Part shown: positions 46,952 to 58,203 of the stretch, in pieces
Layout: each line of letters begins with the position of its first letter
Position numbering within the stretch: the stretch's first letter is position 1
Program-made: the position numbers and the translations under genes
The notes under the pieces: generated by a model
Database searches by the model: none
The model's input: the letters and a program-made list of their open reading frames with translations, nothing else
What the model was told of the DNA's origin: nothing
NCBI RefSeq assembly: GCF_002067035.1
Contig: NZ_MVQB01000028.1
Location: forward strand, 1-64,000
Source: Methanoregula sp. PtaB.Bin085
GTDB taxonomy: Archaea; Halobacteriota; Methanomicrobia; Methanomicrobiales; Methanospirillaceae
Direction: 5' to 3'
Length of the DNA stretch: 64,000 nucleotides

Positions 46952-46975
46952 CGCAGATCCAACATATGCAGCACT

Positions 46976-47060
46976 GCCGGGGTAGTCTAGTCCGGGAAGG
47001 CGGTAGCCTTGAAAGCTACTGGTGCCCTGCACCTCAAGAGTTCAAATCTCTTCCCCGGCG
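46976..47060 (+). tRNA. tRNA-Ser (anticodon UGA)
   Basis: The acceptor stem is GCCGGGG/CCCCGGC with discriminator G. The anticodon arm is GTAGC-CTTGAAA-GCTAC, so the anticodon is TGA, which reads UCA. A long variable arm (about 14 bases around GGTGCCCTGCACC) confirms the serine class. The T arm is AGAG-TTCAAAT-CTCT. CCA is not encoded. Its 3' end serves as the attachment site of the element downstream. Confidence 0.93.
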
Positions 47061-47061
47061 T
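47050..47061 (+). mobile_element. attL core of the integrative element (tRNA side)
   Basis: CTTCCCCGGCGT, which is the last 11 bases of the tRNA-Ser gene plus one. The same 12 bases occur at 51851-51862. Confidence 0.7.
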
Positions 47062-47125
47062 AAACACAGACGGTACCTAATTCTGACATTTATTTAAATA
47101 GGGGTTAATCTCACCCCTTTAACAG

Positions 47126-48226
47126 ATGCCAACGAACGCCTCTATCACAACACCTTTGAACCGTTTTCATAAACCCGACGAAACTCATGCCGAATACATC
47201 GAAACGATTCTGCACCGGGCTCGCAACGGGATCCCGACAAAAAAAACCCATGTGATGCTTCCAGGCATCACCGATGACGACCTGACACTCCTCCGAGAAT
47301 ACTTTGCCGAAGTTCAGGCAACGCACAATATCACCGTCAAAAGACTGTACAAATACAGCTACATTCTGGTCCACTGGCGGGAATTCATCGGAGAATTCAG
47401 GCAGAATGCCATCGGAGACCTGCACGCAGGGATAAACAAGATCCAGATGGCCCGGGATGCGAATGGGAACCCCCGGTATGCGAAGAATACACTTGCCGAC
47501 TATATCGGGTTCCTGAAACGATTTTACCTCTGGCTGAATGAGAACGAGTATACGTCAATCGAGGAGCGGAAAATCAACAAGATCCGTGTTCCTACTGCAC
47601 CGCTGATGACAAAAACTGCGGAGATGCTCGTGTCCAAGCAGGATGTTTTCAACATGATTGCCGCATGCCGCAATTCCCGCGACCGAGCATTCATCAGTGT
47701 CCTGTACGAAGGGGGGTTCCGGATTGGTGAACTCGGGTCCCTGAGATGGAACCAGGTAAAATTTTCCGACTGGAACGTCGCAATCAACGTTGACTGCAAG
47801 ACGGGGAAGCCCCGTTACATCCCCCTGGTGATGTCGCGCCAATATCTTGCGCAATGGAGAAATGACTACCCCCTACCGATGGCGGATGATGGTTATGTCT
47901 TCCTGACCGCGGGACGACACCAGCAACTCCAGTACCGGGGCGTCACAAAACAATTCGAGAAAATTGCCCGCCGCGCTGGAATACAAAAACACATCACGCC
48001 CCATCTCCTGCGACACAGCCGGATCACCCATTTGATCAACGATGGAGTCAAGGAGTCAATGATAAAAATGATGATGTGGGGATCCGTGGATTCCGAGATG
48101 TTCAAAGCCTACGCCCACCTAACCGCTGGCGACATTGATGCGGAAATGGCCAAACACGCCGGGATTGTCATACCTGACCGGAAAGATGAACTGTATGGCC
48201 AGAGCCAGGACCATCCAAGAGCTTGA
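47126..48226 (+). CDS. Tyrosine recombinase/integrase
   Basis: 366 residues. The N-terminal SAM-like DNA-binding domain spans about 50-150 (DLTLLREYFAEVQATHNITV to FLKRFYLWLNENEY). The catalytic domain has Arg199 in EGGFRIGELGSLRW, the HLLRHSRITHL box with His293 and Arg296, and Tyr329 in MFKAYAHLTAGD, so it appears active. It begins 65 bases after the tRNA, the usual place for an integrase acting on a tRNA site. A PolB-thumb-like gene overlaps its last 32 bases. Confidence 0.94.
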   Translation: MPTNASITTPLNRFHKPDETHAEYIETILHRARNGIPTKKTHVMLPGITDDDLTLLREYFAEVQATHNITVKRLYKYSYILVHWREFIGEFRQNAIGDLHAGINKIQMARDANGNPRYAKNTLADYIGFLKRFYLWLNENEYTSIEERKINKIRVPTAPLMTKTAEMLVSKQDVFNMIAACRNSRDRAFISVLYEGGFRIGELGSLRWNQVKFSDWNVAINVDCKTGKPRYIPLVMSRQYLAQWRNDYPLPMADDGYVFLTAGRHQQLQYRGVTKQFEKIARRAGIQKHITPHLLRHSRITHLINDGVKESMIKMMMWGSVDSEMFKAYAHLTAGDIDAEMAKHAGIVIPDRKDELYGQSQDHPRA

Positions 48227-48551
48227 AAGACAAAAACCAGACCTGGAAAGAATGTACCTGGAAACAATTGAGTCGTTGCCAACTGCCGATCCGAAAACAT
48301 TGGCCATATCCCGGAGGATCAGCAAATTGCAGTATTCTCACCGGTGTCTGGAAGGTGCTGCAGTAGAAGCGTACAAACAGCAGGGTGTTGAGATCGCCCC
48401 AGGTATGAAAATACAGTACGTGGTGAAAGATGCTCGAAGATATCAGGTCGAACCTTCATGGTGCGAAAGTACGATAGATGTCTCATTCTATCGTGGTCTT
48501 GTTGACAAAGCGTGGGCGGAGATTGCCTTTGCATTTGGCCACGGAAAATGA
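48195..48551 (+). CDS. Stand-alone PolB C-terminal (thumb)-like domain protein
   Basis: 118 residues that resemble only the end of archaeal family-B DNA polymerases. LAISRRISK (36-44) matches the LVIxRRVSR box, GVEIAPGMKIQYVV (64-77) matches the G(I/V)x-PGxxxxYVV motif, and IDVSFYRGLVDKAWAEI (94-110) matches the YDxxFYRxLLxxAAExx helix, followed by AFAFG. No exonuclease, palm or finger motif is present, so it is not a polymerase. It might bind the primer-template duplex or the clamp-like surface. I start at ATG 48195; it overlaps the integrase gene, implying joint translation. The similarity is by eye and needs confirmation. Confidence 0.7.
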   Translation: MARARTIQELERQKPDLERMYLETIESLPTADPKTLAISRRISKLQYSHRCLEGAAVEAYKQQGVEIAPGMKIQYVVKDARRYQVEPSWCESTIDVSFYRGLVDKAWAEIAFAFGHGK

Positions 48552-48589
48552 ATAACACTAATAAAAAGATGATAGATCTTCTAGTGGCA

Positions 48590-49231
48590 TCAGTATCGTG
48601 GTGATTCGGTCAAATAGTATCTATATTCTATTGGTGTGGTTCTCGGTATATAGATCGGTTCAAAATCCTTAAGATTTATTTCTTCGTGGTACTTCAAGCG
48701 ATCTCCCGTATCGGCAACTAAGTCCCCCGTTTTGCTATCATAATGCCAGATAAATTGAGCGAGATCCTGCATCGCGTCATTCTGAGTTCCAGTTTTTGAC
48801 GGATCCCAACGGAGTATCATCTGAAATGTATCAGTCGATGTTGGGATGATAACCCCACTTAGATATGTTATGTGGTAGTCGCCTTCGTCGTATTTTGGTC
48901 TGATAGTTAAGGAGAAACTATGCTTTGAATCGTTATTAATTTGATATATACTCCATGAATCCCTGGCCTCAAGACTCCAATTTCCTTTAATCTGGTCAGA
49001 TCTTTTGAAATCAGGAAATGAAATATTTTCTCTGATAGCTGAGGAACTCGTTGGAGCGATTGTCGTTTGTGTTATTGTTGTCGTTTGAATGATTGTGGGT
49101 GAAGAAGTAGGGACTGTGGTCAGGTCTGTAGTAGGGATGGGATCTGGTGTTTTAGTTTTTTCATTATCACCAACACATCCTGTTAAAAAAACGATAAGGA
49201 AAACCACTACAACAACAAGAATCTTCTTCAT
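48590..49231 (-). CDS. Predicted lipoprotein, element cargo
   Basis: 213 residues with a lipoprotein signal: MKKILVVVVVFLIVFLTGC, Cys19. A Thr/Ser/Pro-rich stalk (about 26-68) is followed by a domain with GNWSLEARDSWSIYQINNDSKHS, SLTIRPKYDEGDYHITYLSG and FIWHYDSKTGDLVADTGDRLKYHEEI. No named family. It is AT-rich, faces the PolB-thumb-like gene tail to tail, and lies downstream of the winged-helix gene on the same strand. Confidence 0.75.
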   Translation of the reverse strand: MKKILVVVVVFLIVFLTGCVGDNEKTKTPDPIPTTDLTTVPTSSPTIIQTTTITQTTIAPTSSSAIRENISFPDFKRSDQIKGNWSLEARDSWSIYQINNDSKHSFSLTIRPKYDEGDYHITYLSGVIIPTSTDTFQMILRWDPSKTGTQNDAMQDLAQFIWHYDSKTGDLVADTGDRLKYHEEINLKDFEPIYIPRTTPIEYRYYLTESPRY

Positions 49232-49322
49232 GTTTCTCTTCCACGTATGATTGACAAGCTTTAAGGATAAAAAACCTGTGATTCTTTAAGGAAAAAATCC
49301 ATAATGTCAATAATCGGAAATG

Positions 49323-49697
49323 TCATTTAAAGGAATCACGGATTTTTCTGACCAATTTTATCTGATCGCAAGCTTCATTCCGATTATCCTTTTCGATGCT
49401 CTCAATAATTTCTGTCAACGGCATTGCATGTTCATATTTTTTAAACCAATATGGCTTTTCTTCCATCGGAATTTGGATACTCCGTAGCCACCCTTGTTCA
49501 ATCATATAGTTGACTGCTCTGCTAGCATCCGATTGTCGAAGATCGATTCCACGACTAAAATCGTTCACTGTTGCATCGGTTTTTTTTGAAAGAAAAATGA
49601 TAATTTTTCCAACGTTCTTTGGAACACACGCATCTATCAGGAGGCCAAGAAATTTTTCCTCTTTTTCAGCGAAGTGCCGAACGCTCTTTTTTATCAT
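49323..49697 (-). CDS. Winged-helix transcriptional regulator (element-borne)
   Basis: 124 residues. It is a clear paralogue of the chromosomal regulator at 57829-58203: both begin F-x-EKEE-F, contain a DLRQ-x-x-x-S-x-A box in the recognition helix (GIDLRQSDASRAVNYMIEQGW), and end with IxxSIEKxxxxEAxxQxxLVxKxR. The fold looks like a TrmB/ArsR-type winged helix plus a C-terminal coiled coil for dimerisation. It may control the element genes. An inserted YWFKKYEH segment differs from the chromosomal copy. Confidence 0.82.
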   Translation of the reverse strand: MIKKSVRHFAEKEEKFLGLLIDACVPKNVGKIIIFLSKKTDATVNDFSRGIDLRQSDASRAVNYMIEQGWLRSIQIPMEEKPYWFKKYEHAMPLTEIIESIEKDNRNEACDQIKLVRKIRDSFK

Positions 49698-49708
49698 AGT
49701 GTTGCATT

Positions 49709-51577
49709 TTATTGTTTAATCGATGCGTTTTTTCTTGAAATTCGTTTAATTTTTTTGGCGTTCTCATTATCAGGTTCAAAATTCAGAATTTGGTCACATA
49801 CAATCTGGATTTCATCATATTTTTTGTATTGATTTAAGATCCAACAGTAATTCAAGAGACACTCAATTTTCGTAGGATGAATTGAGATGACCTTATCAAG
49901 TATCGTTTTTGCTTCAGAAATATCTCCGATTTTTCCGAGAGCAACTGCTTTATTATTTAAGGCATTCTCGTCGTTCGAAAATAATTTCAATCCATTGTTG
50001 ATAGACTGAATCGCTTCTCGATGATATCCTAAAATTTCATATGTTAAACCATTATCAAATGAGGTTTGAGCATCTGAAATATTTTTCAAATCTCCATCTG
50101 AATGAGATTTCTCTTGATCTAATGATGATCGCAATAGGATTGAGTAATCCCATTCAACGGTTTTTGATTGGTAAGAATCATCCAATTCTTCACCATAGCA
50201 GTTCTCCACCGATCCAGTCCCAATGCTCTCCAGACAGTTCAACATTATTCTTCTTTTTTCGTCTAACGATAACGCGGATGCTGGATCTTTTTTAGAAACG
50301 GGTTTGTCTAATACTTGTTCAACCAGTTCAATAGATCTATTCAGGCGATCCCGACTGTCTGATGCTGATATCAAAGATTTTTTTGCTTCTTTATTATTAG
50401 GATCAGTCTTTACTGCATTTTCAAAAGATTTCATCCCTTCTTCGAAGTTTAATTGTAATACTAATGATTTCCCCCGCAGATGCCAAGCATCGGAATTTTC
50501 TGGGTTCGCGGATAAGGATTTTTCGAAAGCAAGTTCCGCATTTTTAAAATCGCCCGATGAATAATAGTCTTTCCCCTTTTGGTACCACGAAAAAGCATCC
50601 CGGTTTTTATTCAGATTTTCAAGGGCAATCTCTCGGTTGTTTCGTGCCAAGGTATAATTCGGGTCAATTGATAACGCCCTATCATAGCAAAGGAGTGCTT
50701 CCTGAGTTATTCCGATTTTTTCAAGTGCAGCCCCTTTATTATTCCAAATAGAAGGATTATTTTGATCGATTGAGAGAGCTCGGTCATAAGCATTCAATGC
50801 CTGTTGATTCTTGCCAAGTTCATAGAATGTGGACCCTTTATGACACCATACTCCTGAATTATCAGAATCAATTGTTAAAGCATGATCGAAGGCTTCTATA
50901 GCTTCATCGAACTTACCGAGCATATGAAAAGCAATCCCTTGCCCATCCCATGATTGAATATCATTTGGATCGATAGACAATGCTTTTTCATAGATCGCTA
51001 AAGCATCATCATATCGAGACAATTCACACAATACATGGCCGATTCCATGATATGCTGCGGCATTGCAGGGATCAAGAGATAGTGCTTTGTTATATGAGTC
51101 AAGAGCGTCCTGAAGAATTCCGAGACTTTCCATCGTTTCGGCTTTTTTATTCCAAAGTGAAGCATTATCTGGAGCGAGTGTTATTGCTTGATTGTATGCA
51201 TTGATTGCTTCGGGAAATTTTCCAAGGAGGTTAAATGCGACCGCTCTTCCATTCCATGCTGTTACGTCTTCGGGATCCAATGATATTGCCTTATCAAAAG
51301 CATCAACCCCATCTCCATATTTACCAAAAATTAGGAAAACCATTCCTTTTCCAATCCAGGGGGCCGCAAACTCAGAATCGTTTGATAATGCCTGTTCATA
51401 GGAATCAAACGCTTCTTGAAACTTATTGAGATTCTGAAGAGCAAGTCCCTTCCCATACCATGCCTGAGCCGAATTTGGTTCAAGTAATAATACTTGATTA
51501 AAAGCATCAACCGCCTCTTGATACCGCCCGAGACTGTAGAGGGTTTCTCCTTCCTGTTGATAATCATCAGCATCCAT
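49709..51577 (-). CDS. Large TPR-repeat protein, element cargo
   Basis: 622 residues. About ten to twelve TPR units fill residues 1-390, each like Y-x-x-A-x-x-x-(Y/F)-(D/E)-x-A-L-x-(I/L)-x-P-x-(N/D). A middle section (about 400-500) rich in Ser and Asp breaks the series (LNRSIELVEQVLDKPVSKKD), and three to four further TPR units follow (about 515-610). No signal peptide or membrane helix, so it is cytoplasmic. Codon use is strongly AT-biased compared with the host TPR gene at 24.7 kb. Its partner is unknown. The stop lies 11 bases before the winged-helix gene. Confidence 0.88.
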   Translation of the reverse strand: MDADDYQQEGETLYSLGRYQEAVDAFNQVLLLEPNSAQAWYGKGLALQNLNKFQEAFDSYEQALSNDSEFAAPWIGKGMVFLIFGKYGDGVDAFDKAISLDPEDVTAWNGRAVAFNLLGKFPEAINAYNQAITLAPDNASLWNKKAETMESLGILQDALDSYNKALSLDPCNAAAYHGIGHVLCELSRYDDALAIYEKALSIDPNDIQSWDGQGIAFHMLGKFDEAIEAFDHALTIDSDNSGVWCHKGSTFYELGKNQQALNAYDRALSIDQNNPSIWNNKGAALEKIGITQEALLCYDRALSIDPNYTLARNNREIALENLNKNRDAFSWYQKGKDYYSSGDFKNAELAFEKSLSANPENSDAWHLRGKSLVLQLNFEEGMKSFENAVKTDPNNKEAKKSLISASDSRDRLNRSIELVEQVLDKPVSKKDPASALSLDEKRRIMLNCLESIGTGSVENCYGEELDDSYQSKTVEWDYSILLRSSLDQEKSHSDGDLKNISDAQTSFDNGLTYEILGYHREAIQSINNGLKLFSNDENALNNKAVALGKIGDISEAKTILDKVISIHPTKIECLLNYCWILNQYKKYDEIQIVCDQILNFEPDNENAKKIKRISRKNASIKQ

Positions 51578-51891
51578 GAAAAAAATGCAACCCTTAATGT
51601 AATTTATCTAAATTCTCAAGTTATGCAAAATAAGTCTATTGAATAAAATATTTTTTCATTTGAGATCGCAGATGTCAATGGGGAATGAATCAAGCGATTC
51701 TCGCTCGGAGTTATTGTAGAATACAAAAAATACACAATGCGGCCGAGCTCCACATATGATTCAAAAAAAATTAGAAATCCGCGCGCTTACCAAAAAACGC
51801 TCAATTTAGCCTTAAAATCGGGGGGATTAGGTACCACCTATTCGGTCTCCCTTCCCCGGCGTTGTTCCTTTTCCAAAAAAACTGCCACGCT
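51578..51891. other. AT-rich intergenic region with right element end
   Basis: 314 bases. Bases up to 51862 belong to the element and probably include the promoter of the TPR gene (minus strand). The rest is original chromosomal sequence. No gene is supported. Confidence 0.55.
51851..51862 (+). mobile_element. attR core of the integrative element
   Basis: CTTCCCCGGCGT, identical to the tRNA-Ser 3' end at 47050-47061. The bases before it do not continue the tRNA match, as expected at the far end. Confidence 0.65.
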
Positions 51892-57132: not shown

Positions 57133-57849
57133 ATGGAGAAGAAAGCAGAAGATCCCGGACAGGCAAAGCGTGCAGCCGGTTACCGGGCCGCGGAGATGGT
57201 GGAGGACGGGATGGTTGTCGGGCTTGGCACCGGTTCGACCGTGTATTATACCATCGAACGGCTCTCGGAACGGATCAGGGGCGGCCTGGAAATTTCCGGT
57301 ATTCCGACATCCTTCCAGACCGCACTCCGGGCAAAAGCGGCACACATTCCGCTGACCACCCTTGATGACAAACCGGAAATCGACATTGCGATTGACGGTG
57401 CAGACGAGGTCGATCCGAAACTCCGGCTCATCAAGGGACGCGGGGCTGCCCACCTGCGGGAAAAATGCGTGGCGGCAGCAGCGAAGCGCTTCATCGTTGT
57501 TGTTGATGAACAGAAGATGGTAAAAAAACTGGGCGCGGCTGCAGTGCCTGTCGAGGTCCTCCCGTTTGCTGTCATACCGGTCATGCACGAGCTCCGCAGA
57601 CTCGGATGCGAACCCGTCCTCCGCGAGGCTGTAAAAAAAGACGGGCCGGTCATTACGGACAATGGCAATTTCATCGTTGACTGCAGGTTCAGCATAATCC
57701 GTTACCCGGAGAAGCTGGAAACGGCGCTTGCAGCAATCCCCGGGGTTCTCGAAAGCGGACTGTTCACAGGATTGGTAAAGAAGACCACCGTGATTGTCGG
57801 CGGTCCCAAAAAAGTGAAGATACTCTCTTCAGCGGATATATTCGCGTAA
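57133..57849 (+). CDS. rpiA: Ribose-5-phosphate isomerase A
   Basis: Interconverts ribose-5-phosphate and ribulose-5-phosphate. VVGLGTGSTVYYTIE (28-42) binds phosphate, IDIAIDGADEVDPKLRLIKGRGAA carries the catalytic acidic residues (cited in two parts: IDGADEVDP and LIKGRGAA), and VITDNGNFIVDC is the late signature. At 238 residues it is full length. Its end overlaps the winged-helix gene on the other strand by 21 bases. Confidence 0.96.
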   Translation: MEKKAEDPGQAKRAAGYRAAEMVEDGMVVGLGTGSTVYYTIERLSERIRGGLEISGIPTSFQTALRAKAAHIPLTTLDDKPEIDIAIDGADEVDPKLRLIKGRGAAHLREKCVAAAAKRFIVVVDEQKMVKKLGAAAVPVEVLPFAVIPVMHELRRLGCEPVLREAVKKDGPVITDNGNFIVDCRFSIIRYPEKLETALAAIPGVLESGLFTGLVKKTTVIVGGPKKVKILSSADIFA

Positions 57850-58203
57850 TTTCTGCACAAGGGCGAGCTGGTTGTTCGCCTCTTTCTTCTTCTCTTTCTC
57901 GATGCTGTCCATGATCTCGTGGATCGGTTTTGCGAGTTCGTAGATCTTGACCGGGCGTCCCTTGCTCTCTGCCTTGCTCTCGCGGCTGGTAATCCAGTCC
58001 TGATCGATCAGGTACCGCATCGCAATACTGACTTCCGGCTGGCGGAGGTCGGTGCCGCGCTCAATGGCTCGCGAAGTGGCTTCCGGGGTGTTTGCCAGGA
58101 AAACCAGTACTTTTGCCACATTCCGCTTCGTTCCAATCTCGATAAGAAGATTCGCGAACTCCTCTTCTTTCTCGGTAAAATACATTACATTCTCCGTTCT
58201 CAT
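57829..58203 (-). CDS. Winged-helix transcriptional regulator (chromosomal)
   Basis: 124 residues. A winged-helix domain (about 15-90) with the recognition-helix box GTDLRQPEVSIAMRYLIDQDW is followed by a wing (SKAESKGRPVKIYEL) and a C-terminal coiled coil (IMDSIEKEKKKEANNQLALVQKLREYI). It resembles TrmB/ArsR-like regulators of methanogens. It is a clear paralogue of the regulator in the integrative element. It follows tbp on the same strand after 192 bases, though the functional link is unknown. Confidence 0.85.
   Translation of the reverse strand: MRTENVMYFTEKEEEFANLLIEIGTKRNVAKVLVFLANTPEATSRAIERGTDLRQPEVSIAMRYLIDQDWITSRESKAESKGRPVKIYELAKPIHEIMDSIEKEKKKEANNQLALVQKLREYIR

Follow-up and report, generated by a model that had tools for sequence, protein, structure and literature searches.

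A truncated integrase gene fused to the 3' end of a PolB2 gene within an element at tRNA-Ser in Methanoregula

The window (the whole 64,000-nt stretch of Methanoregula sp. PtaB.Bin085 DNA analyzed here) contains a small element integrated at a tRNA-Ser gene, in which a tyrosine integrase gene that has lost its 3' end runs into the 3' end of a family-B DNA polymerase gene of the PolB2 group. Our reading, which we hold with a probability of roughly 80%, is that this element bears the scar of an int/polB2 rearrangement and that the 118-residue ORF beginning just past the join is a relic. The fusion is most likely a recent scar and not a new two-protein machine. The analysis removes a tempting but wrong reading, in which the integrase would bring along a polymerase thumb of its own, and records in Methanoregula a small integrated element, probably damaged, together with a foreign PolB2 remnant.

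Results

An integrated element between tRNA-Ser and hypC

The features of the region are as follows.

46975..47061, + strand: tRNA-Ser(TGA), integration target, intact (ARAGORN; tRNA near hypC in relatives)
47050..47061, + strand: attL core CTTCCCCGGCGT, the 3' end of tRNA-Ser (exact 12-mer)
47126..48226, + strand: tyrosine integrase gene, 3'-truncated (PF00589, E = 9e-28, 97.6 bits)
48185..48190, no strand: int/polB2 junction, approximate (limits of int and polB2 homology)
48188..48551, + strand: polB2 3' end (thumb), with the 118-aa ORF from 48195 (profile, tblastn, tree, and structure model)
48590..49231, - strand: predicted lipoprotein, in the low-GC part of the element
49323..49697, - strand: MreA-like (MarR-type) regulator (NF053756, E = 4e-18, 65 bits, below the curated cut-off of 100)
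49709..51577, - strand: TPR-repeat protein
51851..51862, + strand: attR core CTTCCCCGGCGT (native sequence from there on, GC content back to ~0.52)

The integrated element is ~4.8 kb long (47062–51862) and lies between tRNA-Ser and hypC, with int beside attL. The 12-mer CTTCCCCGGCGT occurs as two exact copies in the window, compared with 0.01 expected, and the sequence past the second copy resembles the DNA that follows the tRNA in relatives. The same tRNA was found near hypC in 18 of the 20 relatives fetched, where the gene order is gene(45815)–tRNA-Ser–hypC–hypA–hypE. The tRNA–hypC spacing is ~100–300 nt in most of these relatives, versus 5.4 kb in the window; some relatives have one additional small gene there, and a few have larger insertions. 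GC content is 0.33–0.42 at ~48.6–51.8 kb versus ~0.52 outside. The segment has the direct repeat at both ends, the empty site in relatives, and the foreign composition that characterize a tRNA-integrated element.

Archaeal att cores of 8–13 bp are on record (PMC8371274), and the 12 bp found here fall within that range. The element resembles the tRNA-targeting elements with archaeal tyrosine recombinases described in the same work in having int beside the tRNA gene, short terminal direct repeats, and an empty site in relatives. It differs from them in that it is just 4.8 kb long, the C-terminal tail of its integrase is gone, and no replication or structural genes were recognized in it.

One relative (G192, locus L091) has 11.7 kb inserted between tRNA-Ser(TGA) and hypC, including PAS/histidine-kinase and HEAT-repeat-like genes, and in two others (G186 and G188) tRNA-Ser(TGA) and the hyp genes are not neighbors. 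The window also carries two similar small MreA/MarR-like regulators, one in the element (49323–49697) and one in the nearby host chromosome (57829–58203).

Identity and predicted fold of the 118-residue ORF

The 118-residue ORF is a detached C-terminal thumb of a family-B polymerase and not a chance resemblance. A preliminary description of this DNA had recognized by eye the last part of an archaeal family-B polymerase, devoid of a catalytic domain, and had proposed a profile search and a structure prediction as checks; both were run and agree with it. The profile search gave a significant match to the NCBIfam profile NF004416 (E = 1.2e-34, 120 bits), which represents type B DNA-directed DNA polymerases; the match covers only profile positions 536–650 of 665, confirming that the catalytic domain is absent. 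The ORF shares 54% identity over 114 aa with the C-terminus of the host's full-length PolB2 (G000:C14), and its closest relative is the full-length PolB2 of another Methanoregula (G162), with 73% identity over 117 aa. An AlphaFold2 model with a mean pLDDT of 91.7 agrees with archaeal PolB thumbs: Foldseek ranked archaeal PolB first with a probability of 1.00 for the top 34 hits and TMq values up to 0.71, at E-values of only ~1e-3. A 32-sequence profile of the thumb likewise matched the Pyrococcus and Thermococcus PolB thumb (best E = 0.002).

Searches of the 118 residues against Pfam, PHROGs, and the PDB (single-sequence) returned no match; neither thumb nor integrase relatives were found in viral contigs, and there were no relatives among phage records. 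A single-sequence scan of genome contigs with the thumb was also negative, and the alignment-based scan returned 37 named loci. Compared with archaeal PolB2, the window piece is the thumb, comprising the last 117 of ~665 residues, and lacks the exonuclease, palm, and fingers. With 120 bits against an NF004416 cut-off of 516, it falls short of a full-length, functional PolB2.

The int/polB2 junction

The window integrase keeps its catalytic domain, with R at ~198–199, H293..R296, and Y at ~328–329. It lacks the CxxC...CxxC zinc-ribbon tail (~50–80 aa) that ~28 of the 30 other integrases compared with it carry; imperfect tails among these ~30 homologues are those of L038, which is one Cys short, and L046, which is disrupted. 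Likeness to the homologues stops at ~codon 353 and the protein ends 13 codons later, its last ~12 codons being polB2 DNA read out of frame. At the DNA level, int homology ends at ~48177. The polB2 tblastn match starts at 48183, with clear similarity from ~48188 (N-C-M-A-R-A versus D-C-M-A-R-A), and the polB2 DNA match starts at 48217. Because PolB2 homology sets in exactly at the point where the integrase likeness stops, each gene must be truncated, and the two are joined at ~48185–48190.

The ORF does start inside the integrase gene, as had been reported: the two reading frames differ and overlap by 32 nt, from 48195 to the integrase end at 48226. PolB2 similarity from ~48188 means that in this overlap the end of int is encoded by polB2 DNA in another frame. 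The overlap is the fusion junction of a 3'-truncated int and a 5'-truncated polB2 and does not mark a designed gene pair. The earlier proposal of a new integrase–thumb arrangement therefore holds for the detached thumb and fails for the arrangement, since the overlap is a fusion junction. Its statement that the two proteins are produced together is not supported, and the start codon is an internal polB Met codon (M551 in the G162 frame).

The suggested survey for the same pair found none in the other genomes searched, an outcome that the preliminary description had named as counting against its proposal. When a 541-bp junction query was searched against the DNA of 108 family genomes, no match spanned the junction; int-side matches end by 48177 and polB-side matches start at 48217 or beyond. 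Among the matches listed from 232 order genomes, no int was seen by eye within ~18 kb of PolB2 elsewhere. The junction itself was seen in one draft assembly of 63 contigs.

Origin of the polymerase fragment

The source of the fragment is the PolB2 group, which in archaea corresponds to the iRadA-PPB2-PolB2 operon (PMC4104785, PMC11791011). The G162 source gene scored 952 bits against NF004416 (cut-off 516). By eye, motif C reads GIVDCLW in both G162 and the host PolB2, the second Asp being missing. ORFs of 81 and 85 aa that start with MGRS lie directly upstream of polB2 in G162 and G172, and they are called PPB2-like from their start motif (an MGRT-like motif taken from PMC11791011), size, and position. 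The altered motif C and the upstream MGRS ORF of the source gene agree with the PolB2-PPB2 pairing (PMC11791011) and the inactivated PolB2 group (PMC4104785) described earlier. Upstream of polB2 in most relatives is a conserved ~175-aa protein, a candidate iRadA, the profile of which matched no RadA structure. In contrast to the archaeal PolB2 operon, neither PPB2 nor iRadA lies next to the window piece.

Phylogenetic analysis placed the fragment as sister to the G162 PolB2 with support of 100/99, and the host's own PolB2 grouped with those of relatives G170 and G174, apart from the fragment. The fragment is thus foreign and is no copy of the host gene. No complementary N-terminal PolB part was found in the host genome, where the only PolB sequences besides this piece are the full-length PolB2 and a distant PolB. 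The split PolB of Methanothermobacter thermautotrophicus (Kelman et al. 1999, as cited in PMC7776575) provides a precedent for a detached PolB part in that the polymerase is distributed over more than one polypeptide. In that system, as the citing paper presents it, the genome encodes both parts and the enzyme is made up of them, whereas the window genome lacks the complementary part and additionally has a separate full-length PolB2.

Codon-position changes along the two branches were similar, with ratios of 8:3:21 at positions 1:2:3 for the fragment and 8:2:15 for the functional G162 PolB2. The third-position share on the fragment branch exceeds one third (p = 2e-4), and 1 of 23 near-invariant residues is altered in the fragment. 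The piece thus shows no visible decay, which is most simply read as a sign of recent severing; that selection has maintained it is less likely.

Discussion

In the sequence of events that we favor, the 4.8-kb element (47062–51862) would have entered beside tRNA-Ser(TGA) via tyrosine recombination, and a non-homologous rearrangement inside it would have joined int, cut before its zinc-ribbon tail, to the end of polB2. The polB2 contribution would be the last 117 codons, from a UBA154-like Methanoregula, and the relic ORF would owe its readability solely to a Met codon that polB2 has at that point. The rearrangement may have been an internal deletion in a larger element on which int and polB2 pointed the same way, or it may have captured a broken polB2 end. 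Among the genomes searched, no parent element was found in which int and polB2 lie near each other. On contig G160:C24, an integrase gene and polB2 lie on one strand ~18 kb apart, a layout that would yield an int'-'polB2 fusion by one deletion, the membership of polB2 in that element being putative.

The preliminary description had offered as a fallback that the ORF is the scar of an element that once lay in polB. The idea of a scar comes close, but the element is located at tRNA-Ser and carries the polB piece inside it; integration into polB is ruled out since the element ends at tRNA-Ser. A native position of polB beside the hyp genes, an idea based on a G171 piece that adjoins hypA and a full gene after hypE in G183, was likewise ruled out as ancestral, with tRNA and hypC adjacent and no polB between them in most fetched relatives.

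Instead of being left by a deletion, the piece could have been inserted into the 3' part of int by a process that spreads polB2 3' ends, with the 3' terminus fixed and the 5' end variably truncated. Loose pieces in G173, G171, G158, G139, and nine Haladaptatus plasmid records mostly reach the exact C-terminus and start at varying positions. In nine or so of the Haladaptatus pieces, the 3' terminus is a common one that includes a strong hairpin and is also found away from polB2, and one Methanoregula piece ends in another dispersed repeat. We consider insertion unlikely for the window piece, however: it lacks a terminus of this kind, the 71 nt downstream of it fold no better than shuffled sequences (z = -0.58), the 255 nt downstream have no convincing match in six relatives, the remainder of int does not resume beyond it, and neither a transposase nor a target duplication was identified. 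Still less credible, to the point of being very improbable, is an assembly chimera in which unrelated contigs were merged at 48.19 kb. The single draft assembly and a composition shift at ~48.55 kb would fit such an error, but the host has no other G162-type polB2 that could have been joined by mistake, and both att sites frame the segment consistently.

It also seems distinctly improbable that the thumb is a working protein made with the integrase and kept either as an accessory that binds duplex DNA or because it interferes dominantly with the host's full-length PolB2. Its fully open ORF, a pattern of constraint like that of functional PolB2 with a single near-invariant residue changed, and a confidently predicted thumb fold would suit this role, as would the detached PolB2 C-terminal ORFs of Haladaptatus, which are annotated as genes and include partial copies with dN/dS values of ~0.1–0.2. 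Low dN/dS is, however, also expected from recent severing and, in Haladaptatus, from exchange with full-length copies. The low Haladaptatus values were ruled out as proof of function, as exchanged polB segments lie beside near-identical flanks at orthologous loci. Further points against a working thumb are that it is unique to the window genome among the genomes searched, that its translation would need a Met codon inherited from the polB interior, that related loose pieces contain stops or frame breaks (G173:C111 and G158), and that polB2 is frequently broken in the family.

PolB2 pieces in relatives and in Haladaptatus

In-place polB2 copies are frame-broken or truncated in G159, G191, G213, and G224. 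The possibility that polB2 is always split near residue 520–540 was rejected, the breaks being frameshifts in place. With a full-length PolB2 query, loose 3' pieces were found in G173 (six), G171 (three), G158, and G139, nearly all of them C-terminal; the six in G173 (a SPRUCE MAG; L064–L069) belong to a single Methanoregulaceae genome. One of the G171 pieces (G171:C3:40104; L063:12102-12377) has hypA on one side and, on the other, a CRISPR array accompanied by a cas1-like gene. The ~75 nt past the stop are common to L063 and L068 and are partly a dispersed repeat.

Haladaptatus megaplasmids (NZ_CP085340, NZ_CP085339, NZ_CP085302, NZ_CP111042, and others; L190–L223) carry dozens of partial PolB2 copies. 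Across nine megaplasmid records, ~28 partial copies with many different starts run to the C-terminus, compared with about six N-terminal copies. The shared 3' terminus of nine or so pieces lies ~125–135 nt past the stop, with a strong hairpin (z = -3.6), and this terminus also occurs without polB2. The genes annotated on these megaplasmids as "DNA polymerase domain-containing protein" resemble the window ORF as detached PolB2 C-terminal ORFs (143–184 aa) but show no integrase fusion, and many end at the common hairpin repeat. At the orthologous loci L198/L200, L203/L209, and L208/L211, one flank is ~92–98% identical, the polB piece is ~83% identical, and the other flank is unrelated. Plasmid segments appear to have been exchanged at the polB pieces, and ectopic exchange would give this divergence between flank and piece.

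One-ended transposition from the hairpin end is our guess at a mechanism for the 3'-anchored pieces. A broader proposal, that detached PolB2 thumbs recur in euryarchaea through such 3'-fixed, 5'-variable spreading, that a number of them are retained as small proteins that bind DNA or regulate PolB2, and that the window ORF is one copy, strikes us as quite unlikely. If the wider pattern holds, a repair-polymerase gene would have been copied around archaeal genomes; the 3'-anchored pieces are more interesting than the window finding and merit a separate look.

The 20-kb contig G160:C24 (L073, L122) has its tyrosine integrase at one end and its polB2, which is frame-broken, at the other, and also encodes a 1052-aa protein that is primase-like by eye (no family hit) and DNA methyltransferase-like genes.
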